A stretch of DNA of 35,783 nucleotides from Candidatus Fermentithermobacillaceae bacterium (GTDB lineage: Bacteria > Bacillota > Sulfobacillia > Fermentithermobacillales > Fermentithermobacillaceae): contig JAAZEL010000024.1 of NCBI GenBank assembly GCA_012512325.1, forward strand, positions 1 through 35,783. The letters run 5' to 3'. The position numbers were made by a program, and so were the translations under genes. Of this stretch, positions 7,337-17,951 are shown piece after piece. The notes below the pieces were generated by a model. It did not search any database, was not told the origin of the DNA, and worked only from the letters and a program-made list of their open reading frames with translations. Numbering within the stretch: position 1 is the first letter of the stretch; every line of letters starts with the position of its first letter.

Positions 7337-9193
7337 TCATCCACCTCTGGGATGGAACTTGAGGGCCTTGTCTATAATCTCTGCGTCAAGCCCTAAAGCT
7401 TTTGCCACGACCAACGCATCCTGGGGCGTCGGGGTGTCAGGGCCAACCTTCTGTAGGGTGTAATCCATGTGACGGTACAACCAGCCGATGTCGTCACGGG
7501 TGCCGGCGGTGGCCTGTGCCCGTGCTTCAGGCTCTGTGTGCCGTCCTGGCTTGGCACCTGTTCCGGCTTGGGCTCCGTCCTTTGTCCCTGCCCTGGCCGG
7601 TGTGTCGCTTTCTGCCCATGTCTCCCTCTTCGTCTCTGCACCTGGGCCGGCCTCTTCACCTGAGCTGCCCGCCAAATCCAAAGATGCGGTTGCCAGGCCC
7701 TTTACCTGCCAGTGGGGCACGCCAAGAGCTGCCGCCAACCCGTGGTAATGGGTGGTGGCCAGCACAGTGGAACCCGCTTTGTCGTTTTCCATGTAGTACT
7801 GGAGCAGCGCAGCGTAAAGCGCGCGCCCTTGAGAAGGGTTCGCGCCCCTGCCCACTTCGTCAAGGAGTATGAGCCCTCTTTCGCCCATTCTGGAAAGGGG
7901 CTGCTTTAGGCTTACGATTTCCGCGGCAAAACTGGACAGCCCCGGGGTTTGTTCTTGCCCGGGCTGGAAATAGATGAAGTCGTACAGGCTGAACTCCATC
8001 TTGCTGCACGGCACCATAAGCCCCCACTGGGCCATGGCCACGCACAGCCCCACAGTGGACAAGGCCACCGTCTTGCCTCCCATGTTGGGCCCGGTAATCA
8101 CCGAAACCGTGGAATCCAGTTCTATGCTTATGCGCTGGTACTTCCCGCCCCTGGATTCAACTTCGTCCTTAACTAATGGATGGAATGCGTCCCGTAACAT
8201 CAAATCCGAAGGCGGCGTATGTCCCGGCTCTTCCCTTATCACGGGCCGCGTGGCATCCATAGCTCGAGCCAGTTCAGCCTTGGACAGCAGGAAATCCAGT
8301 TCGCCCAAGGCGCATGAAGCCGCTTCCATGGCCTGAAGATGTGTCCTGAGCTCCAGGGACAGTTCCCGCAGCACTTGGGCTTCCTGCTCACTTTGTCTTT
8401 GCTTCAGCATGGTAAGCTCTTGTTCCCGCTTTGCCGCTGCCCTGGCAGGTATGAGCCTGAAATACACATGGGTAAGGGTTTGCCTGGTCTCCCCGAGTTC
8501 AGGCATGGACCTGGCCTTCTCAATCAGGTCGTGGTCTGACTTGCGCATGGCGGTTTCGCCCGTTTCTGAAATCCTGATGCCAAGGGATTGCTCCACTGCC
8601 CTTGCCTGCTCTGCCATTTGCTCTTGCCACATTTCCTGCGCTTGTTTGCGCATCTTCCTGGTTTCGGCAAGGGCAGGAGAATATGCATCGCTTATGTAAA
8701 ACCTGGGTTGGCCCTGGGAACCCGGCGCAAGCAAATCTTCCACCGGTTCCAGCCCCGGGGGAACGGCTGTCCCGGGCCACCCTGCTATACCTGTCTGAGC
8801 TTGCAGGCCGCGTATTCTCCTTACACAAGCGCACAAGTTGGCGAGGATGAAGAGCTCCGCCAGAGAGAGCACCTGGCCGTCCCGCAAAAGATCCATGGCG
8901 TGGAAGGGGTCCTTCAGGGACTCTAAGATCCCCAGGATCTCCGAGAAAACAGCCGGGTTGCCGTCCCATAGTTTCACCACCGCTTCCAGCCGGTCAAACT
9001 CGCCCTCAAGGGCTCCCTCTGTTCCCGGCAGGAAGGGCCTTGCCCCGGCTTTCGCCCTGCGCCCTGGCGCTGACCTGGGCTTAACCGATGCCCAAATTTG
9101 GGCAAACCCCAGATGGTCTGAAGTGCTTGGGGGAAGGAAGTACCCTGTGGCGCTATGCCGGCTTCGTGTGTACCGGGGGTTTCCCGGGGTCAC
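7337..9193 (-). CDS. kamC: MutS-like ATPase KamC, probable lysine 5,6-aminomutase reactivase component
   Basis: MutS-type P-loop ATPase, here not expected to repair DNA but, with KamB, to restore the B12 aminomutase by exchanging damaged cofactor. That role is inferred for the family from gene neighbourhood. The 618-residue product has Walker A GPNMGGKT and Walker B LILLDEVGRG, followed by the MutS-like NPSQG and ATTHYHGL segments. The MutS mismatch-recognition domain is absent. A low-complexity Ala/Gly/Thr/Glu-rich insertion of about 60 residues, near residues 510-570, interrupts the C-terminal part between LATASLDLAGSS and IGWLYRHMDYT. The GTG start at 9193 overlaps the kamB stop by 4 nt (GTGA), so the two are translationally coupled. 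Confidence 0.85.
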   Translation of the reverse strand: MTPGNPRYTRSRHSATGYFLPPSTSDHLGFAQIWASVKPRSAPGRRAKAGARPFLPGTEGALEGEFDRLEAVVKLWDGNPAVFSEILGILESLKDPFHAMDLLRDGQVLSLAELFILANLCACVRRIRGLQAQTGIAGWPGTAVPPGLEPVEDLLAPGSQGQPRFYISDAYSPALAETRKMRKQAQEMWQEQMAEQARAVEQSLGIRISETGETAMRKSDHDLIEKARSMPELGETRQTLTHVYFRLIPARAAAKREQELTMLKQRQSEQEAQVLRELSLELRTHLQAMEAASCALGELDFLLSKAELARAMDATRPVIREEPGHTPPSDLMLRDAFHPLVKDEVESRGGKYQRISIELDSTVSVITGPNMGGKTVALSTVGLCVAMAQWGLMVPCSKMEFSLYDFIYFQPGQEQTPGLSSFAAEIVSLKQPLSRMGERGLILLDEVGRGANPSQGRALYAALLQYYMENDKAGSTVLATTHYHGLAAALGVPHWQVKGLATASLDLAGSSGEEAGPGAETKRETWAESDTPARAGTKDGAQAGTGAKPGRHTEPEARAQATAGTRDDIGWLYRHMDYTLQKVGPDTPTPQDALVVAKALGLDAEIIDKALKFHPRGG

Positions 9194-10299
9194 CCCATGG
9201 CCATGCCGCCTACCCCCTCTGTGCTCTTCTCCCCTGAAACAACGTCAAACACGGGCAGCGGATGTCCCACATCCATGAGGGAGGCGCCGATGGCGCCCAC
9301 CATTTCCCTGGGATCGTGGGACATCCCAAGCCAATTCACAGGGTTAACCGTTACCGCCAGGAGCTTGAGGGGCTGGGTCACGTAGAGGTCCACGCCTGGG
9401 CGTTTGGTTGCAAATATGCTCACCGCGTCGCCGGCTATGACTGCAAACTCCCGCCTTTTCGCCCAGGCACGGGCCTTGTCCAGAAACGCCTGGCTGACCG
9501 CCCCCGGCACCACAACTGCCGCCGCATCTCCTGCCTGCTCCAGAATTAGATCTTCTATGCCCAGCACCGTCGGATGATCTGTGATTCTCAGAACATATGT
9601 CGTGTGTTGCTGCGTGTCCCTTTGTTCTGTATCCTTGCAGGCATCGATGAAACATACCTTGTCGCTTTCAACGGCTTCCCTGGCAAGGGCAGCGACGGCG
9701 TCCACAGGGTGCTCGGGCCTGGACAGCAGCCACACCAGGAACCCCATTTCCTGGGCAGCGGCTTCCAAGTCCATGTCCAGCGATGCCCCTGTTGCCAGGA
9801 TCACGGCATCGGTGACCTTGGGGCTGGCGGCCGCCATCCGGTCCAGGGCGCCGTCAACCAGCACCATATCGGCACCCAGCTCAAGCAGCTTGCTCACGAT
9901 TGCAGACAGTTCCCTCGCGCTCCGCGGGCCTACCAGCTCAAGGGCTACTTCCTCCGCTGCCCGGCCAAGCACGAGACGGCCGAACACCCCCTGGGTTCCC
10001 AGAACGTCTGCGATTTCCAAGCCCGACCCCGACCCGCGAAGCACGCCCTCGGCGGTGACTACCCACGCGCCTTGGGGCGCGGTCACGCTGGGCTTAGGCT
10101 GGCCTGTGAAGGCGTCGATGGCTTCCCCGTCGCGCCCTGACGACACCAGGCCTAAGGTCAAGCCCTGTGCAGACAGTTCCGACACCAGGTAGTTCATGGC
10201 GACTGTCTTGCCTACGTTCTTTGCTGTTCCGACTATTGCTACGGATCTGACGCCGCTACCTGTTACCACGTCTACAAGCTGCTTTCCCGTCTCCCTCAC
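9190..10299 (-). CDS. kamB: KamB, probable lysine 5,6-aminomutase reactivase subunit
   Basis: P-loop protein of 369 residues found with KamC in lysine-fermentation clusters and thought to act with it in reactivating KamDE. The Walker A motif GTAKNVGKT is near residue 25, followed by a Rossmann-like core. The rest has no motif I can assign to a reaction. The GTG start at 10299 has AAGGAG 7 nt upstream. The end overlaps kamC by 4 nt. It lies 129 nt after kamA. An alternative reading as a general MobB-like or dethiobiotin-synthase-like NTPase is possible from the P-loop alone. The tight coupling to kamC and position between kamA and kamD make KamB the better name. Confidence 0.8.
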   Translation of the reverse strand: MRETGKQLVDVVTGSGVRSVAIVGTAKNVGKTVAMNYLVSELSAQGLTLGLVSSGRDGEAIDAFTGQPKPSVTAPQGAWVVTAEGVLRGSGSGLEIADVLGTQGVFGRLVLGRAAEEVALELVGPRSARELSAIVSKLLELGADMVLVDGALDRMAAASPKVTDAVILATGASLDMDLEAAAQEMGFLVWLLSRPEHPVDAVAALAREAVESDKVCFIDACKDTEQRDTQQHTTYVLRITDHPTVLGIEDLILEQAGDAAAVVVPGAVSQAFLDKARAWAKRREFAVIAGDAVSIFATKRPGVDLYVTQPLKLLAVTVNPVNWLGMSHDPREMVGAIGASLMDVGHPLPVFDVVSGEKSTEGVGGMAMG

Positions 10300-10428
10300 C
10301 CCCTGGCTCCTTCCCCTACGCTTCCTGGTTTCTTGGCCTCAGCCCCTGTGATTGTTATCTGTTTGGCTTGTGCCCTGTTTCTCATCTATTCGGCGCCTGA
10401 CGTGTGCTTCCGCCTGCACCCTTGGTTA

Positions 10429-11736
10429 TCATTCTTCGCTGCAGCAAGGTCCGTTGTCTTGACCTTCCTCGCTGTGGGCACGGCGCCGCTTGAACCGCTC
10501 GGTGTCCCTGGGTACCAAGCTCACCTGCTTACCGCCAATAAGCCCTGCTACGCCCACGGCATCCTTGTGGTCGCCGCCGCACAGCTTGCATTTTCCATCT
10601 TCAGTGCGGTTTTCGCTGAGATCGTATTCGGGCTCACGGTAAGCTGAGATTACCCCTTCGTAGTTCCTGACCACCACAGTGTTTGCGCCGAAAGACACCA
10701 GATAGTTCGGGGCTATGGGCACCTTGCCGCCGCCGCCGGGCGCATCTATCACGTAAGTGGGAACTGCGAGCCCGGTGGTATGGCCTCTCAGATACTCCAT
10801 GATCTCAAGCCCTTCGGCCACAGTGGTCCTGAAGTGCTCGAGCCCCCAGGTAAGGTCGCACTGGTAGATGTAGTACGGTCTCACCCGGATCTTCAGGAGT
10901 CCGTGAACCAGCTCTTTCATGACCTTGGGGCAGTTGTTTATGCCCCTTAAGAGCACCGTCTGGTTGCCCAAAGGAATCCCTGCGTCAGCCAGGGTTGCGC
11001 AAGCCTTGGCGGCTTCCGGAGTTATCTCCTTGGGATGGTTGAAGTGGGTGTTAAGGTAAATCGGATGATACTTGGCCAGCATCTTGGCCAGTTCGAGTGT
11101 GATCCTCTGGGGCATCACCACAGGGGTCCTGGACCCGATCCTTATGATCTCAACGTGGGGAATCTCCCGCAGGCGGCTTACCACGTACTCAATCCTGTCG
11201 TCTGACAGGGTGAGGGGGTCGCCTCCGGAAATGAGCACGTCGCGCACTTGCTTGTTGCTCTTGACGTACTCGATTCCCATGTCAATCTTCTCGGTAGAGG
11301 CAACGCGGTCGGTAACCCCTACCACCCTGCGCCTGGTGCAGTGGCGGCAGTACATGGAACACTGTTCGGTAACCAGGAACAGGATCCTGTCGGGGTACCT
11401 GTGGGTTATCCCCGGCACCGGCGAATCCTCGTCTTCCGCCAGAGGATCGTACGCCTCCCAGGGAAGCACCCTGGCTTCGTATGCCCTTGGAACGGCTTGC
11501 AGCCTGATGGGGCCCGATTCGTTGCCGTATTCTATAAGGCTGGCGTAGTAGGGAGTTATGGCCATCCTCACCCTGGACAGGGCTACCTTGACCCCTTCTC
11601 TTGCCTCGTCGCTCAATCCGGCTACCTCAGCCAGTACATCTGCGTCTTCGATGCGGTTCCTCCACTGCCAACGCCAGTCATTCCATTCCGCTTCCGTAAC
11701 GTCTTTGAACAAGGGGATCTCTTTCCAATGACGCAT
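10429..11736 (-). CDS. kamA: Lysine 2,3-aminomutase (radical SAM)
   Basis: Interconverts L-lysine and L-beta-lysine using a [4Fe-4S] cluster, SAM and PLP; first step of the beta-lysine fermentation route. The 435-residue product has the cluster motif CSMYCRHC (Cys126, Cys130, Cys133), the GGDPL motif near 171-175, and the PLP-lysine segment PGGGGK (Lys338). A C-terminal CKLCGG pair fits the structural zinc site. The clostridial enzyme is about 416 residues, so this one is slightly longer. The ATG start at 11736 has AAGGAGG 9 nt upstream. EpmB and YjeK-type enzymes lack this C-terminal extension, and the neighbours are all lysine-fermentation genes, so the catabolic enzyme is the clear call. 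It lies 202 nt downstream of kdd. Confidence 0.97.
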   Translation of the reverse strand: MRHWKEIPLFKDVTEAEWNDWRWQWRNRIEDADVLAEVAGLSDEAREGVKVALSRVRMAITPYYASLIEYGNESGPIRLQAVPRAYEARVLPWEAYDPLAEDEDSPVPGITHRYPDRILFLVTEQCSMYCRHCTRRRVVGVTDRVASTEKIDMGIEYVKSNKQVRDVLISGGDPLTLSDDRIEYVVSRLREIPHVEIIRIGSRTPVVMPQRITLELAKMLAKYHPIYLNTHFNHPKEITPEAAKACATLADAGIPLGNQTVLLRGINNCPKVMKELVHGLLKIRVRPYYIYQCDLTWGLEHFRTTVAEGLEIMEYLRGHTTGLAVPTYVIDAPGGGGKVPIAPNYLVSFGANTVVVRNYEGVISAYREPEYDLSENRTEDGKCKLCGGDHKDAVGVAGLIGGKQVSLVPRDTERFKRRRAHSEEGQDNGPCCSEE

Positions 11737-11938
11737 GTGTCATTACCTCCTTGGCGGGCCGGCAGTTGCCCTGCTTGCTGCTGCCTAAGTTCTGATTGAA
11801 CCCGGCGTTTCTGATTTTATCCGTCGCTGTTGCCTTGTTGTCTTGAGCCAAGTTGCTCTGGCTGCACTTGCCCTAATTCCGGTTGCGCTGCTTAGGACAC
11901 CTGCCGGCCTTTTCTAAAGAAGCACCGGCCAGCGCCGG

Positions 11939-13009
11939 CTACTTGAGGAACATTTCCTCAAGGATGCTTCTGAGCTTGTCATCGTTTCTTACGAGGTCCA
12001 GCGAGTAGTCTGCGTGGCCCTTTGCATAGCCGTTTCCGATTATCAATTGCACATCGGCGCCTACACCTTCCGCGCCCAGGGCCGCTGCGGTAAAGCTGGT
12101 GGCCATGGAGAAGAAGTACACTATGCCGCCTTCCCTGGCGCTCAAAATCGAAGCCATCTCGGTGCCCGGGATGCTCACGCAGTTGATGGTCACGTCCGCC
12201 TTCTTGCCGTCGTTGGCTTCCAGGAGTCTGTTCATTACGGACATGGCATTCCTGGCGTCACCCTGGAGCACTATGTCGCACACTCCAAGCTCTCTGAGCC
12301 TGGCAGCCGACCTGTCGCTGTGGGCAAGCCCTATCACTTTGCCCTCGGGCCCCACTTTCTTGGCTGCTACCGCGGCGCACATGAGCCCTGACTTGCCACC
12401 GGCGCCCAGGATAAACACTGTATCTCCCGGCTGTACCAGCCTGTCGGTTTGAATGGGAGCGCCTGCCACGTCGAGTACGGCAAGGGCAAGCTTATCTCCC
12501 ATGTCGTCGGGCAGCACCGCAAACACGCCTGATTCGAAAAGCACTGCAGTGCCTTCTACGTCCACCTGGTCCTTGTCAAGGTGCACTTTCTTGATTTTCG
12601 AAATCTGGAGAGGGGTAAGGGACAAGGAAACCAGCGTGCAAATCCTGTCGCCTACTGTTGCCCCGTTCTTGCCTTCCACCTTGGGCCCGAATTCCTTGAT
12701 CCTACCCAACAGCATCCCGCCTGAGCCGGTAACCGGGTTATGCATCTTGCCCCGCTTGCCAACTATATCCAGCACCGTGGCCGCTACATGAGCTTCTTTC
12801 TGTGCATCGTCCGCGCCTTCGGGAGCCGAGCTTACGATCTGTTTGAAGCTGGCTGCGTCTACGTTGAGGGTTTCCACCTCAATCAGTATTTCGTTGTCGC
12901 GGATTTCCGGCGTATTGTCGATCTTCCACGCTGCTTGAGGCAGCACGCCTTCGGGCTCAATCACCCTATGGCAACCGTAAGAACATCCTGGCTTGTACTG
13001 TTTCGTCAT
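11939..13009 (-). CDS. kdd: L-erythro-3,5-diaminohexanoate dehydrogenase
   Basis: Oxidises and deaminates 3,5-diaminohexanoate, the KamDE product, to 5-amino-3-oxohexanoate with NAD(P). The 356-residue product starts MTKQYKPGCSYGCHRVIEPEG-like, as in the family, and has an alcohol-dehydrogenase-like Rossmann glycine motif, LGAGGKSG (about 201-208). Length fits. The ATG start at 13009 has GGAGG 7 nt upstream. It is the first gene of the cluster, behind a sigma-54 promoter at 13167-13183 and a leader of about 148 nt. In known clusters kdd is next to kce and kal; here neither gene is in the window. Confidence 0.93.
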   Translation of the reverse strand: MTKQYKPGCSYGCHRVIEPEGVLPQAAWKIDNTPEIRDNEILIEVETLNVDAASFKQIVSSAPEGADDAQKEAHVAATVLDIVGKRGKMHNPVTGSGGMLLGRIKEFGPKVEGKNGATVGDRICTLVSLSLTPLQISKIKKVHLDKDQVDVEGTAVLFESGVFAVLPDDMGDKLALAVLDVAGAPIQTDRLVQPGDTVFILGAGGKSGLMCAAVAAKKVGPEGKVIGLAHSDRSAARLRELGVCDIVLQGDARNAMSVMNRLLEANDGKKADVTINCVSIPGTEMASILSAREGGIVYFFSMATSFTAAALGAEGVGADVQLIIGNGYAKGHADYSLDLVRNDDKLRSILEEMFLK

Positions 13010-13095
13010 TTCAGCACCTCCGGATTCTCAGTAAGTTGCTTTCGGTTGTTGGATTGCTCACGGCAAATCCCTGCAAATCCTTGATACTGAATCCT

Positions 13096-13151
13096 TAGCT
13101 GTAAGTCCATAGCTGTAAACCGCTAGCCGTAAACCGATAGCTGCAAACCCA
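13096..13151 (-). repeat. 14-bp x4 tandem repeat in the kdd leader
   Basis: Four consecutive 14-bp units (13096-13109, 13110-13123, 13124-13137, 13138-13151) share the plus-strand pattern TAGCYGYAARYCNN. They lie between the predicted sigma-54 transcription start (about 13157) and the kdd start codon, so they would be transcribed as leader RNA. Confidence 0.8.
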
Positions 13152-13166
13152 TCATTATTGTTATTC

Positions 13167-13183
13167 ATGCAACTTCCGTGCCA
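13167..13183 (-). promoter_or_regulatory. Sigma-54 promoter of the lysine-fermentation operon
   Basis: The minus strand reads TGGCACG, four bases, then TTGCAT. This matches the -24/-12 sigma-54 consensus, with the GG and GC pairs at the required spacing. It faces kdd and predicts a start near 13157. A sigma-54 activator gene lies divergently just upstream. Confidence 0.85.
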
Positions 13184-13221
13184 CGGAGTCCGGCGGGCCT
13201 GTCAATCACAGAGAAACCGGA

Positions 13222-13384
13222 TTTGTTCTGCTTGTCTTGTTCCGCTTGTCCTTGTTTCGTTTGTTTGTTCGGTTTGTCTTGCTTCCGTTCGTTCTGTTTC
13301 CCTTCCTTCACTCGTTTTTGTGCTGTTTCATTTGCTTGTTTCGTTCGTCGCGTTTGGCTCGTTCGCTTCGTTGCTTCCGTTGTC
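13222..13384. promoter_or_regulatory. A-depleted T/C/G tract upstream of the sigma-54 promoter
   Basis: Across 163 nt of the plus strand only two adenines occur (13310 and 13330). The stretch is made of degenerate TTGTTC/CGTTTG-like repeats of roughly 13-15 bp. It occupies about -40 to -200 relative to the sigma-54 promoter, where activator-binding sites normally sit. The reverse frame (13165-13398) encodes only a Lys/Gln/Asn-rich low-complexity string, which I do not take as a gene. Confidence 0.5.
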
Positions 13385-13400
13385 ACGTGACTCTTCAACC

Positions 13401-13426
13401 GGGTCTTATCCTAGGGTCTTATCCTA
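13401..13426. repeat. 13-bp exact tandem duplication upstream of the activator gene
   Basis: GGGTCTTATCCTA occurs twice back to back (13401-13413 and 13414-13426). It lies in the 734-nt region between kdd and the divergent activator, about 320 nt before the activator start. A nearby 10-bp pair containing CCTGACC (around 13549-13568) resembles half of the dyad in the 15500-16026 array. Confidence 0.6.
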
Positions 13427-13579
13427 CTGTTTTCATACATTGAGGCAGGAATCGGCGGCACGGATGCCGAATATTGGTCATGTGTCTCAAGTCCAAACGC
13501 CAAATTCCCGGCAGCGTTTCGGCATCGGGGGCTTTCCGCCGGGAGGGCCTGACCAAACCTGACCGAAGGAGATAAGGAA

Positions 13580-13642
13580 GTGTTGCAGCGGCGAGAGAGC
13601 CGGGCTCTGATGCGAATGCTTGCCTCGGGCTTGTGGCCGTAG
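13580..13642 (+). CDS. Possible 20-residue leader peptide upstream of the activator
   Basis: A GTG start at 13580 sits behind GAAGGAG with 8 nt spacing and opens a 20-codon frame, MLQRRESRALMRMLASGLWP, then TAG. The peptide is rich in Arg and hydrophobic residues. It lies 100 nt before the sigma-54 activator on the same strand. Only the good ribosome binding site supports it; it could be chance. Confidence 0.2.
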   Translation: MLQRRESRALMRMLASGLWP

Positions 13643-13752
13643 GGATTGCCGCGAAAATTGCCGCCCGGAGCGGTTATCGACCGGCCGGAGCAATCGCCGG
13701 GCCCAATGGGATGCATGGCGTTGACTGATAAGGAGGATGTACTCTGGACCTG

Positions 13753-15150
13753 TTGACTGCCCTTCTCAAAGTGCTGGAGGTGGCCACCGAAGGCATCCAT
13801 GTGGTAGACGAACACGGGGTAACCGTTGTATACAACAAGGCCGCCTCTGAGTTTGACGGGCTCTTGCCCGAGGAGGTACTGGGCAAGCATATCCTGGAGG
13901 TCTTCCCTTCCCTCAGCCATGACTCAAGTACACTCCTGAGGGTGCTCAAGACCGGGGTTCCGGAGATAGCCAAGCAGCAGACTTTCACCAATTACAAGGG
14001 GAAGACGATCACTACCATTAACTCAACGTACCCGATCACCGACGGGGACACGATCATCGGGGCATGTGAGATTTCCACCGATATTACCCGTATCAAGGAA
14101 ATGGCCGAAAGGATTGCCGACCTGAGTCAGGAACTCCGCAGCAAAGAACACGCCGAAAAGCCAGGCGTGACCAGGGCCAAATCTAAGATTTCCCGGAAAT
14201 TCTTCACGGTGGACGACATAGTAGGGCAATCTGCGGTCATGAGGGATGTAAAGCGGCAGGTGGTTCAGGTTGCCCGCACCCAGTCCAACGTGCTTGTGTG
14301 GGGGGAAACCGGCACAGGCAAGGAATTGGTTGTCCAAGCCATCCATTCGGCATCTGACAGAGCTGATGCTCCCTTTGTCGCCCAAAACTGCGCCGCCTTG
14401 CCTGAAGGATTGCTGGAAGGCCTGGTTTTCGGCACATCCAAAGGCGGGTTCACAGGCGCCCAGGACCGCCCGGGACTCTTGGAACTGGCATCAGGCGGCA
14501 CTTTGTACCTGGATGAAATCGATTCCATGCCCCTGGGGCTCCAGGCAAAGCTGCTGAGAGTGATCCAGGACAAGAGGGTGCGGCGGATCGGGGATGTGAG
14601 GGAAAGGCCGGTAGACGTAAGGATAATCGGCTCTACCAGCATGCCTCCCCGGCAAGCGGTGGAACAGGGCTTACTGCGGCCTGACTTGTACTTCCGCCTG
14701 GCGGTTGTTGAGATTGGCCTGCCGCCTTTGCGCAAGAGGCAGGAAGACATCCCGCTTTTGGTGTCGCATTTCTTGCGCAAGCATGGCAGGGGTAAAACCA
14801 TCAGTGTATCTCCCGAGGTTATGTCGGCGTTCCTTACCTATGATTGGCCGGGCAACGTGCGAGAGCTCGAGCACGCCATAGAAGGCAGCCTCGCGTTCCT
14901 GAAAGGCGACACCATCGAGCCGGCTCACATCCCCCCGACGGTAAGGGGTATCACAGCCACAACCGGCTTGAACAAGGGATCTATACGCAGTCTCCTCAAG
15001 AACCACGAGAAGACTGCCATAGAAGAAGCCTTGAGACAGGGCGGTTCAGTGTCCCAGGCTGCAAGAATTCTGGGGATCCCGAGGCAGACACTCCAGTACA
15101 GGATGAAAATCCATGGGATTAAGTCGCCCCGCTCCAGAGACAAAGGTTGA
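13753..15150 (+). CDS. PAS-AAA+ sigma-54-dependent transcriptional activator
   Basis: Enhancer-binding protein that hydrolyses ATP to open sigma-54 promoters. Domains in order: a PAS sensor (about 1-115); an AAA+ domain with Walker A GETGTGKE (184-191), a sigma-54 contact loop GGFTGA (231-236, a variant of GAFTGA) and Walker B LYLDEID (251-257); and a C-terminal Fis-type helix-turn-helix (about 430-455, GSVSQAARILGIPRQTLQ). It resembles the RocR-type amino-acid-catabolism activators. It is divergent from kdd, whose promoter is sigma-54 type, so it probably regulates lysine fermentation; the signal is unknown. The frame opens with TTG at 13753, but a CTG at 13744 in the same frame sits 7 nt after GGAGG and may be the true start. 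Confidence 0.93.
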   Translation: MTALLKVLEVATEGIHVVDEHGVTVVYNKAASEFDGLLPEEVLGKHILEVFPSLSHDSSTLLRVLKTGVPEIAKQQTFTNYKGKTITTINSTYPITDGDTIIGACEISTDITRIKEMAERIADLSQELRSKEHAEKPGVTRAKSKISRKFFTVDDIVGQSAVMRDVKRQVVQVARTQSNVLVWGETGTGKELVVQAIHSASDRADAPFVAQNCAALPEGLLEGLVFGTSKGGFTGAQDRPGLLELASGGTLYLDEIDSMPLGLQAKLLRVIQDKRVRRIGDVRERPVDVRIIGSTSMPPRQAVEQGLLRPDLYFRLAVVEIGLPPLRKRQEDIPLLVSHFLRKHGRGKTISVSPEVMSAFLTYDWPGNVRELEHAIEGSLAFLKGDTIEPAHIPPTVRGITATTGLNKGSIRSLLKNHEKTAIEEALRQGGSVSQAARILGIPRQTLQYRMKIHGIKSPRSRDKG

Positions 15151-15366: not shown

Positions 15367-15417
15367 AGTGGGTGTGTCTCAGATTGCATACCCGTTCGAT
15401 TTTGAAACACACCCACT
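15367..15417. repeat. 11-bp perfect inverted repeat with 29-nt loop
   Basis: AGTGGGTGTGT (15367-15377) is the exact reverse complement of ACACACCCACT (15407-15417). It lies between the convergent activator and argS genes. The right arm is followed by TATATTGTC, so it could be a transcript-end hairpin for the activator about 220 nt after its stop, a small RNA element or a protein site. There is no clean U-run. Confidence 0.5.
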
Positions 15418-15499
15418 TATATTGTCTCCCACAAACCTGTGCCTATTCTGCAGGACGATGGTATTCCGGCGGTATTTGACCCTGCGAGCAGACCCGAAC

Positions 15500-16026
15500 C
15501 TGGCCTGAGACTGACCACTTCTCATTGCCAAAAGCCTTAGCCGGTTTGGAATTGGCCGGTTCGGGGCCTAACCTGGTCTGAAATTGGCCACCTCTGCCCG
15601 AGATCCGGTTCAGAATTGACCACTCCGCCGACTGCCAGACCGGAGACCGGTTCCAAATTGTCCAGTCTGGTGCCGCGTCCGGTCTGAGATTGTCCACCTC
15701 CGCCTCGGATCTGGTTCACGATTGACCAATCCGCCTTTCCGGAAGCCTGCACTGGTCTGAAACTGTCCACTTCCGAGGTGAAGCTGGCCTGAGGCTGGCC
15801 ACTTCAGGCTCAGATCTGGCCAAATCCTGACCACTTCGGCCTCCTTCCATCTCCCACCTGGTCACGAATTGTCCACTTCCGCGTTCAACCTGGCCCGCGA
15901 TTGACCACTCCAGGTCCGGACCTGGTTTCGGATTGGCCAGACGCCTAGAAGCCGGCTTGAATCTGGTCTGCGATTGACCGGTTCTCTTACGGATCTGGCC
16001 AAGAACTGACCATCTCAACTCGCAAC
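15500..16026. repeat. Helically phased array of 15 degenerate dyad units
   Basis: Fifteen adjacent units with lengths 41,32,32,42,32,32,41,32,32,42,32,32,41,32,32 fill 527 bp. Every unit starts with a core of consensus CYGGYYnnrrnyTGDCCR, so a GG and a CC lie about 13 bp apart in dyad-like arrangement, often as TGG...CCA. The tails between cores are diverged although their lengths are kept. The three-unit period is 105 or 106 bp, close to ten turns of B-DNA. Three overlapping minus-strand frames read Trp/Gln/Gly-rich repeat peptides, but the unit lengths change frame, so coding is unlikely. The array sits between two convergent genes. Possible natures are an enhancer or protein-coating array, a decayed IS21-type terminal repeat cluster, or a chromosome-organisation site. 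Confidence 0.9.
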
Positions 16027-16074: not shown

Positions 16075-16095
16075 GTGGCGGCTTTCCGCCGCCAC
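16075..16095 (-). terminator. Possible argS-operon terminator hairpin
   Basis: An 8-bp perfect stem, GTGGCGGC with GCCGCCAC, encloses a 5-nt loop. On the minus strand it is followed by ACGTTGTTTTC, a weak T-rich tail. It lies about 160 nt past the argS stop, between that gene and the phased array. Confidence 0.4.
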
Positions 16096-16110
16096 GGATC
16101 ATTGTCGAAC

Positions 16111-16210
16111 CATGTTCTTAATGAACCAACGCTGTTTTTCGTGAGGCAAGGCTGTCTTCCATAAGCCAATGCTGTTTTTCCTAAGCCACGGCTCTCTTCC
16201 TGCTCTTTTT
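16111..16210. repeat. 20-bp x5 degenerate tandem repeat downstream of argS
   Basis: Five 20-bp units (16111, 16131, 16151, 16171, 16191) share a GCTGTTTTTC then AAGCCAA-like pattern. The first and last units are the most diverged. The stretch ends 43 nt before the argS stop codon and encodes nothing recognisable. Confidence 0.75.
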
Positions 16211-16253: not shown

Positions 16254-17951
16254 CTACATGGACTCCGGGGCCGACACTCCCGCCATCCTGAGTGCATTTG
16301 CCAAGACTATCTGGCACACCCTGGCAAGATACAGCCTGGCTGCACTGAGTTCTTTGTCTTCGCCCAGCACACGGCACTGAGTATAGAAAGAATGGAAGGC
16401 CGAAGCCACGTTCATCATGTAATTTATGAGTCTGTTGGGCTCCCTGGCCTGGCCGAATTCGTACACTTCCTCAGGGAAGGCGGCCAAGAGCTTCATCATC
16501 TGGATTTCGGATGGTTCCCTGAGCAGGGAGAAGTTGATCTCATTCGGACCTAATGCCGGGACGACCCCTTCCTGCCTTGCCTGCCTGAAGATGCTGGCTA
16601 TCCTGGCATGGGCATACTGCACATAGTAGACGGGGTTTTCATTTGACTGGAGCCGCGCCAGGTCAAGGTCAAAATCCAGGTGGCTGGACGGCGCCCGCAT
16701 CAGGAAGAAAAAGCGGCATGCGTCCTTCCCGGCTTCTTCCAGAAGTTCGTCCATTGAGATAAACTCGCCGCCACGCTTAGACATCTTGACAACCTGCTTG
16801 CCCCGGACGAGCCTCACCGTCTGGGCAATGATCACCTCAAGGCTCTCGGGGGGATAACCCAAGGCTGCGATTCCTGCTTTGAGCCGGGTTACATAGCCGT
16901 GATGGTCCGGACCCAGGATATTGATGAGGTGGTCGTAACCGCGGTCGAACTTGTTCTTGTGGTATGCGATGTCGGGCACAATATAGGTGAAGTTACCGTC
17001 TGACTTGACTACCACCCGGTCCTTGTCATCCCCGAACATGGTGGAGTTGAGCCACTCGGCTCCGTCCTTCTCGTACGTCAGCCCTTTCTGGCGCATGAGC
17101 TCGAGGGCTGCTTCAGGAGCGCCCTGATCGCGCAAGCTTTTTTCGGAGAACCAGGTGTCGTACTCAAGGCCGTAATTAAGCAGGGTTTGCTTTTGCTGTT
17201 CTACAATCCGGGACACGACGTATTGCTTCAGCCACTCGTGCCTCTCTGAATCAGGGAGTTCAAGGATGGTATCGCCTTTTTCCGCAACAAGCTCCTTGGC
17301 GATGTCTATGAGGTATTCGCCCCGGTACCCGTTTTCCGGGAAAGGCACCTCTTGGCCAAGCACCTGGCGATAACGGGCTTCCAGGGAATCGGCCAGCACA
17401 TCCACTTGATTGCCGGCATCGTTTACGTAATACTCTCTGGATACCCGGTAGCCTGATGCCTCAAGTAGCGAAGCCAGGCAGTCCCCGATTGCAGCCGCCC
17501 TGGCGTTCACCGCGTTGAGCGGGCCTGTAGGGTTGGCACTCACGAACTCAATCAGGATTTTCTTGCCTCCGCCGTAATTGGTCGAGCCGTAAGCAGGCCC
17601 CTTCTTCCAGATGTCGGCCATGGCTTCCTCAAGCCAGCCTGTGCTCAGGAAGAAGTTCAGAAACCCCGGGCCGGCGATGTCGACCCGCTGTATCCAGGAA
17701 TCTTCCAATGAAAGATAGCGGACGATGGCGCCTGCGACTGACCGGTCGTCGCACTTCACCTCGCTTGCCAATGCCATGGCAACGCTTGTGGCAAAATCGC
17801 CCTGCTCGGGCCTGGCAGGCATGGTTATCTTGATGTCAGCCTCTACATAATCAGGCAAATCACCTTTTGCTTTCGCCTTATCGATAGCTTTCGCTATTCG
17901 ATCCTTAATGTCATTCTTCACTTTGCTTATGACGCTTGTGCTCTCATCCAT
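16254..17951 (-). CDS. argS: Arginyl-tRNA synthetase with a divergent HIGH motif
   Basis: Class I synthetase that charges tRNA-Arg. The 565-residue product has the N-terminal additional domain, the SANPTGPL and REYYVNDAGNQ blocks, a KMSKR signature (in VVKMSKRGGEF) and the C-terminal helical anticodon-binding domain, and is of normal length. The HIGH position reads N146-A-V-N149 instead of the usual HxGH or HxGN, which is seen directly in the codons AAC GCG GTG AAC. Related variants may occur in some ArgRS lineages, but I cannot check. The ATG start at 17951 has AAGGAG 10 nt upstream. It lies 37 nt after speB and is probably co-transcribed with speE and speB. Confidence 0.95.
   Translation of the reverse strand: MDESTSVISKVKNDIKDRIAKAIDKAKAKGDLPDYVEADIKITMPARPEQGDFATSVAMALASEVKCDDRSVAGAIVRYLSLEDSWIQRVDIAGPGFLNFFLSTGWLEEAMADIWKKGPAYGSTNYGGGKKILIEFVSANPTGPLNAVNARAAAIGDCLASLLEASGYRVSREYYVNDAGNQVDVLADSLEARYRQVLGQEVPFPENGYRGEYLIDIAKELVAEKGDTILELPDSERHEWLKQYVVSRIVEQQKQTLLNYGLEYDTWFSEKSLRDQGAPEAALELMRQKGLTYEKDGAEWLNSTMFGDDKDRVVVKSDGNFTYIVPDIAYHKNKFDRGYDHLINILGPDHHGYVTRLKAGIAALGYPPESLEVIIAQTVRLVRGKQVVKMSKRGGEFISMDELLEEAGKDACRFFFLMRAPSSHLDFDLDLARLQSNENPVYYVQYAHARIASIFRQARQEGVVPALGPNEINFSLLREPSEIQMMKLLAAFPEEVYEFGQAREPNRLINYMMNVASAFHSFYTQCRVLGEDKELSAARLYLARVCQIVLANALRMAGVSAPESM

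Follow-up and report, generated by a model that had tools for sequence, protein, structure and literature searches.

Several described systems bear on the repeat array reported here. REP and BIME elements are dispersed intergenic palindromes, species-specific and sometimes arrayed, for which a rare cognate nuclease gene lies beside one copy, with the types of gene and repeat matched (PMC2817692). The REPs number more than 100 short repeats, alternate in orientation and keep their stems through complementary changes; the nuclease, RAYT, is an IS200/IS605-like Y1 tyrosine (HUH) transposase. The sopC/parS site of the F plasmid is a single plasmid site of about twelve tandem direct repeats with a uniform length of 43 bp, and each of these contains one dimeric site, an inverted repeat of 16 bp. 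Operators wrapped by Lrp/AsnC proteins contain three to five semi-palindromic sites at regulated promoters; for Lrp these sites share one face of the helix at intervals of 2-3 turns, and the DNA is wrapped round the protein oligomer. At GntR/FadR operators the half-sites are about 3 bp apart (TGGT-N3-ACCA); the DNA-contacting arginines of FadR are R45 and R49, and the published probes carry CTGGTC and CTGGTACGACCAG (PMC4259882). The ends of IS21 elements bear multiple direct repeats (PMC10122671), which are bound by a helix-turn-helix protein, are few in number with 23-bp spacing, have an inverted partner end and are accompanied by istAB.

The window, by which we mean the whole stretch of 35,783 nucleotides analysed, belongs to the genome designated G000 (a MAG of 1.66 Mb in 92 contigs); G001-G004 are other members of the genus. 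It contains one copy of a dispersed dyad-array element that is undescribed, is present in about 10 copies per genome, and is confined to a small group of uncultured heat-loving bacteria. Like REP/BIME elements, these are dispersed intergenic palindromic repeats with a candidate nuclease gene beside an array copy and matched to it in type (two independent cases), but the units are direct, their arms do not co-vary, and there are about 10 long arrays rather than a multitude of short repeats. The neighbouring gene also differs, in that it encodes a winged-helix (wHTH) protein with a homing-endonuclease-like region, and the array-bearing genomes have no Y1 transposase; RAYT was rejected because PF01797 is absent from G000-G004. 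With sopC/parS the arrays share tandem inverted-repeat sites that are apparently dimeric, one in each direct repeat, but they are built of 32/32/41 triplets at about 10 chromosomal loci. They are not confined to the vicinity of the origin, the genes that anchor them being found all the way round the chromosome of G006, a relative with a complete genome, and no parAB lies beside the arrays examined. The one-face spacing of Lrp/AsnC sites fits one of the two array types described below (type 1, 10.53 bp per turn) and not the other (type 2, 10.89); the arrays further differ from Lrp/AsnC operators in extending over 400-800 bp, in not being linked to promoters, and in a half-site sequence that is unrelated.

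The array in the window is listed unit by unit in Table 1. The weight matrix for the units was trained on 428 units of other arrays and on none from the window; at a threshold of >15 bits its 15 matches on the + strand of the whole 35.8 kb are exactly the 15 array units, and on the − strand there are just two, both near-palindromic units (10 and 15) of the same array. Between the unit starts at 15500 and 15995 the steps are 41, 32, 32, 42, 32, 32, 41, 32, 32, 42, 32, 32, 41 and 32 bp. A preliminary description, made from the letters of the window alone, had reported a 15-unit array with this 41/32/32/42/32/32 pattern, and a matrix that had seen none of its units confirms it; autocorrelation of the gap between the activator gene and argS likewise peaks at 105, 32, 73 and 106 bp. 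The unit consensus given at that time finds 108 exact matches in the window's own genome, as against 16 for a reversed-pattern control. The type 1 unit consensus is RAnCTGGTYnRRAATTGACCASTTY, that is, an imperfect dyad RAnCTGGTY-N7-GACCASTTY. Because this consensus differs among units of class A (after the long step), B (middle) and C (before the long step), the true repeat is the triplet of 105-106 bp. The remark that spacing is conserved more than sequence stands as a description of the window array; a comparison of indels with substitutions in arrays and flanks gave alignment artefacts, since diverged arrays cannot be aligned reliably with gaps.

Table 1. Features of the window array and its surroundings, in window coordinates.
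Feature	Position	Strand	Remarks
Sigma-54-dependent activator gene	13753..15150	+	flanking, outside the element
Terminator-like inverted repeat 3' of the activator gene	15367..15417	+	retained in G002-G004; lost in G001
Whole type 1 array	15497..16026	+	15 dyad units, triplets of 105-106 bp
Unit 1, CTGGCCTGAGACTGACCA	15500..15517	+	
Unit 2, CCGGTTTGGAATTGGCCG	15541..15558	+	class A, after long step
Unit 3, CTGGTCTGAAATTGGCCA	15573..15590	+	class B
Unit 4, CCGGTTCAGAATTGACCA	15605..15622	+	class C
Unit 5, CCGGTTCCAAATTGTCCA	15647..15664	+	class A
Unit 6, CCGGTCTGAGATTGTCCA	15679..15696	+	class B
Unit 7, CTGGTTCACGATTGACCA	15711..15728	+	class C
Unit 8, CTGGTCTGAAACTGTCCA	15752..15769	+	class A
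Unit 9, CTGGCCTGAGGCTGGCCA	15784..15801	+	class B
Unit 10, CTGGCCAAATCCTGACCA	15816..15833	+	class C; scores on − strand too
Unit 11, CTGGTCACGAATTGTCCA	15858..15875	+	class A
Unit 12, CTGGCCCGCGATTGACCA	15890..15907	+	class B
Unit 13, CTGGTTTCGGATTGGCCA	15922..15939	+	class C
Unit 14, CTGGTCTGCGATTGACCG	15963..15980	+	class A
Unit 15, CTGGCCAAGAACTGACCA	15995..16012	+	class B; scores on − strand too
Terminator-like hairpin downstream of argS, GTGGCGGC-TTTCC-GCCGCCAC	16075..16095	-	read directly in the sequence
argS	16254..17951	-	flanking, outside the element

The array sits between the two terminator-like hairpins. At 16101-16200, between the array and argS, a 20-bp sequence like CCAAYGCTGTTTTTCRTAAG, unrelated to the dyads, is repeated four to five times in tandem, and genes for lysine fermentation (lysine 2,3-aminomutase and a kdd-like dehydrogenase) adjoin the sigma-54 activator at 9190-15150. 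A coding sequence was rejected as an account of the arrays: triplets of 105, 106 and 98 bp break frame, and the ORFs that cross arrays are non-coding in composition.

The same anatomy recurs beside quite different genes. The window's own genome has at least eight further clear arrays (contigs C6, C18, C34, C51, C60, C62, C78 and C84), three sister species of Candidatus Fermentithermobacillaceae have 7-10 each, and triplet matches number 62, 70, 52 and 22 across the four array-bearing species. A triplet search found no arrays in the fifth congener, G002, which an ArgS tree places as the outgroup, sister to those four; nor were there triplet matches in other genera of the order, apart from two weak ones in G010. 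When 84,980 named genomes were scanned, repeated matches were confined to Candidatus Fermentithermobacillaceae (DTU015, AS08sgBPME_389) and to two MAGs of Bacillota in which the same arrays occur; all others were isolated chance pairs. The array patterns have no match in viral contigs (two patterns), plasmids or phages, and a phage or plasmid origin was rejected on that account. Full arrays hold 12-23 units, in one orientation throughout. Their neighbours (argS, ldh, tig/clpP, NUDIX, flgG/mreB, pmbA/thiD, leuS, M14 peptidase) are unrelated and without a common theme. The window array has no tie to either flanking gene, in keeping with the earlier remark that it is upstream of neither. A polar replication signal was rejected, array orientation relative to replication being mixed as judged from the G006 anchors.

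With no restriction placed on step length, about 30 arrays gave steps of 32 bp (229 times), 41 bp (76) and 42 bp (27). The remainder are mostly skipped units (63-64 and 73-74 bp) and steps of 52 bp (five cases), near whole turns of 10.53 bp; the fit of the non-canonical 52 bp steps to whole turns is to be read with only 10 such steps independent of skipped units (p ~0.02). Span divided by whole turns is 10.4-10.6 bp per turn in every type 1 array and 10.53 overall, and the strict spacing seen in the window extends to the relatives, whose scored unit lengths are 32/32/41-42 throughout type 1 arrays. A second type of array occupies the argS gap of G003. It has 16 units of AACCTGGTAYCRAAATCGACCA in strict 32/33/33 steps, its inner half-site spacing is 1 bp longer than in type 1, and its 98-bp triplet corresponds to 10.89 bp per turn (period 10.85-10.89 bp). 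G003, which has further type 2 arrays, is the sole member of the genus with this type; one more was found in another genus, in G010, and a class-wide pattern search for other array types returned only G003 and isolated chance matches. The G010 example (L155, 6240-6760) is an orphan type-2-like array that consists in part of a duplicated block of about 172 bp. WW/SS dinucleotides are periodic in both types, at 10.5 bp in type 1 (well above shuffles) and at 10.85 bp in type 2, and the type 1 period fits bent or wrapped DNA. The proposal that all cores face one side of B-DNA holds for type 1 and fails as a general rule: because type 2 has 98-bp triplets at 10.89 bp per turn, only type 1 keeps a constant phase on relaxed B-DNA.

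An alignment of eight arrays from several loci is colinear for about 500 bp and has sequence specific to each unit; beyond the array borders the similarity ends. Because whole arrays are colinear at unrelated loci, arrays spread as units. One array, L007, resembles its paralogue L008 (78%) more than its positional orthologues (71%), and the members of the orthologous pairs L008/L061 and L099/L060 have 88-89% identity, about as much as their flanks or more. In the argS gap G002 has an empty site of 186 bp with the terminator kept; G000 and G004 have a type 1 array there, G001 an inverted type 1 array with the terminator lost, and G003 the type 2 array. From this variation and from the array identities it follows that whole arrays move or are replaced, and that some are kept. 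No target-site duplication was identified at arrays. A degenerate 12-bp tandem repeat (TATGTAGGATGC) is found after argS in G001, just ahead of the inverted array (L103, 8265-8460). Between diverged orthologous arrays the half-sites differ at 15.6% and the linkers at 40.4% (p ~1e-30), with no differences at G in position 2 or C in position 16; in the two closest orthologous pairs the values are 9.2% and 12.0%, which is not significant (p 0.27). Constraint on the dyads is, by these comparisons, supported over long times and weakly over short ones.

A candidate for the cognate protein was found by looking beside arrays, and the adjacency counts given here rest on array neighbourhoods. At one locus common to G000, G001 and G003 the neighbouring gene encodes a protein of 267-271 aa with an N-terminal winged helix, recognized by Pfam and by fold match. 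Its C-terminal stretch matches PHROG homing endonucleases (E 6e-8 and 1e-7), and a motif D-x11-E-x-x-G-x-Q-H (D151, E163-x-x-G-x-Q-H) is invariant in four such proteins; profile matches and our reading of the motif point to a homing-endonuclease-like C-terminus with a PD-(D/E)XK-type motif. The structure model has a mean pLDDT of 43.6 and a shallow alignment, and the wHTH part alone is credible. A sequence search of the DNA gathered for the analysis revealed a paralogue, 63% identical, that adjoins a type 2 array on contig C40 of G003. Gene and array are 30 bp apart at the type 1 locus of G003, overlap by 14 bp in G001 and are 32 bp apart for the type 2 paralogue; the array is always at the 3' end of the gene, on the opposite strand, and the two G003 gene-array loci share no sequence outside the gene. 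In G000 some 300 bp separate the gene (L009, 3979-4784) from the array, and a single-base frameshift interrupts it near codon 203; the copies in G001 and G003 are intact. The G000 gene may be dead, or the frameshift may be an error in the MAG. Because three of the four cases are one orthologous locus, there are two independent gene-array cases. The gene was not found near the G004 arrays examined, and it is absent from the whole G010 contig that bears the type-2-like array. It has no homologues in viral contigs, and its plasmid and phage matches, at 27-41% identity, cover less than half of the protein.

The recognition helix of this protein aligns weakly to that of FadR (E 0.5-0.8). The equivalents of R45 and R49 are invariant in the wHTH-nucleases of both types, the type 1 proteins have ST and the type 2 protein GA at contact positions 46 and 47, and the half-sites in the FadR probes match those of type 1 and type 2 arrays (CTGGTC, CTGGTA). 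The array half-sites differ in being separated by N9 or N10, and the wHTH-nuclease has no acyl-CoA domain. We regard this likeness of helix and half-sites as a lead, not as proof.

The explanation that we prefer, and hold tentatively, is a system like that of RAYT and REP with an unrelated nuclease, in which dimers of the wHTH-nuclease bind the arrays and spread them between intergenic gaps. On this view the segment in the window would be a single copy of an intergenic element, dispersed and restricted to the genus, made up of imperfect dyads that follow one another in triplets. Each dyad would receive one dimer of a winged-helix protein, the placing of type 1 sites on one helical face would favour cooperative loading of dimers, and some 500 bp of DNA, bent or wrapped by the loaded dimers, would form a single nucleoprotein body. 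The 267-271 aa protein with the homing-endonuclease-like C-terminus is the likeliest candidate for the cognate protein, and cleavage by its predicted nuclease could lead to the copying of arrays into other intergenic gaps, giving about 10 arrays per genome around a rare gene. Such a scheme would follow the logic of the RAYT transposase and REP/BIME, the nuclease being unrelated. Of its elements, the arrays with their geometry, turnover and dispersal as whole units, the empty site and the adjacency of gene and array in both types are observed; binding, bending or wrapping, cleavage and movement are inferred.

The main rival is that the arrays are a host chromosome-organising or segregation site for another protein, with a nucleoid protein wrapping or bridging the DNA as at a sopC-like centromere or an Lrp-like operator, and with the nuclease neighbour either coincidental or a former mover. 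That each of four species has about 7-10 arrays in its genome, many of them at shared positions, would suit such a role, but arrays lie all round the chromosome of the complete relative and not only near its origin, and their orientation, by inference from the anchors, is not polar. Array presence at a locus varies between species, and G002 and the other genera live without arrays, although the argS gap holds some array in four of four species despite changes of type and orientation, and two orthologous arrays are as similar as their flanks or more so. The 10.5-bp WW/SS periodicity is consistent with an organising site, as are the precedents of Lrp, which wraps DNA at sites 2-3 turns apart, and of F parS, with its twelve repeats; taking both sides together, we consider an organising site rather unlikely.

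Less probable again is a neutral satellite, in which slippage or recombination multiplied the triplets, these now and then changed place, and the spacing is due to recent common descent and not to function. Common descent is indeed evident in the A, B and C classes and in the colinear arrays, some arrays have a close paralogue within their own genome, and type 2 keeps triplets at a different spacing. Neutrality sits poorly, however, with G2 and C16, which never differ between diverged orthologous arrays whose linkers differ at about 40%, with the 52 bp steps, which are also whole turns (10 independent steps), and with a WW/SS signal whose maximum falls on the helical period in type 1 and type 2 alike.

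The preliminary description had also raised a fossil, or multiplied, IS21-type transposon end. This reading, very improbable in our estimate, is largely refuted: neither PF00665 nor NF033546, used to look for istA and istB, occurs in G000, G001, G003 or G004, and these four array-bearing genomes have no IS21 or rve protein. The resemblance lies in the multiple direct repeats and in a TGGTC-like core seen in one relative, an IS21 element of the same order with 3-6 tandem 23-bp TGGTCGG repeats per end, but those repeats are few and 23 bp apart, and the arrays keep a single orientation over 12-23 units with no inverted partner. The ends of that element, in G016 (L217, 2601-2743 and 4650-4726), have about six and at least three such repeats, and IS5376 is described with two. 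IS21 is absent from four of four array-bearing species and present in 8 of 10 other family genomes, a pattern that is suggestive and confounded by phylogeny.

A repeat RNA with many hairpins, to which we give almost no credence, is also largely refuted. Each dyad is foldable and single array sequences fold better than shuffles, but they do so equally on both strands; no compensatory changes occur in 340 units from 24 arrays, where Watson-Crick pairs are as frequent as in shuffled units, the covariation term is near zero in an alignment of eight arrays, and Rfam yields no match above threshold. The earlier statement that the arms do not co-vary is thereby upheld, and it favours a DNA-binding platform over an RNA structure. 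As for a distant enhancer cluster serving the neighbouring sigma-54 activator (some 350 bp separate the array from the end of the activator gene, and 2.5 kb from the start of the kdd target), we think it scarcely credible because the neighbours of arrays are unrelated housekeeping genes: the further arrays in the same genome and those of the same anatomy elsewhere adjoin tig, mreB/flg, leuS, thiD and others, and G002 has the same activator gene without an array.

The genome-wide family, the second array type, the empty site and the adjacent wHTH-nuclease gene all lay beyond the reach of the preliminary description. Returning to the nuclease-based reading, it is possible, though we would say so with more reserve, that these elements represent a new class of bacterial repeat system, in which a winged-helix homing-type nuclease is paired with long phased dyad arrays, type-specific paralogues and consensus sequences co-evolve, and the arrays are spread and may help to organise the chromosome. 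If the link between gene and array holds, it would be a second and unrelated solution to the RAYT-REP problem, that of a host-encoded nuclease maintaining non-coding arrays. Even if they are bound by a nucleoid protein only, no long protein-binding arrays of greater regularity are, as far as we are aware, known from a bacterial chromosome. The arrays amount to a natural in vivo ruler, in which two types, each with a paralogue, differ in the spacing of half-sites and of units (triplets of about 105.4 bp at 10.53 bp per turn, and of 98 bp at 10.89), and the two types could allow direct tests of the reading of helical phase, dimer geometry and DNA wrapping.
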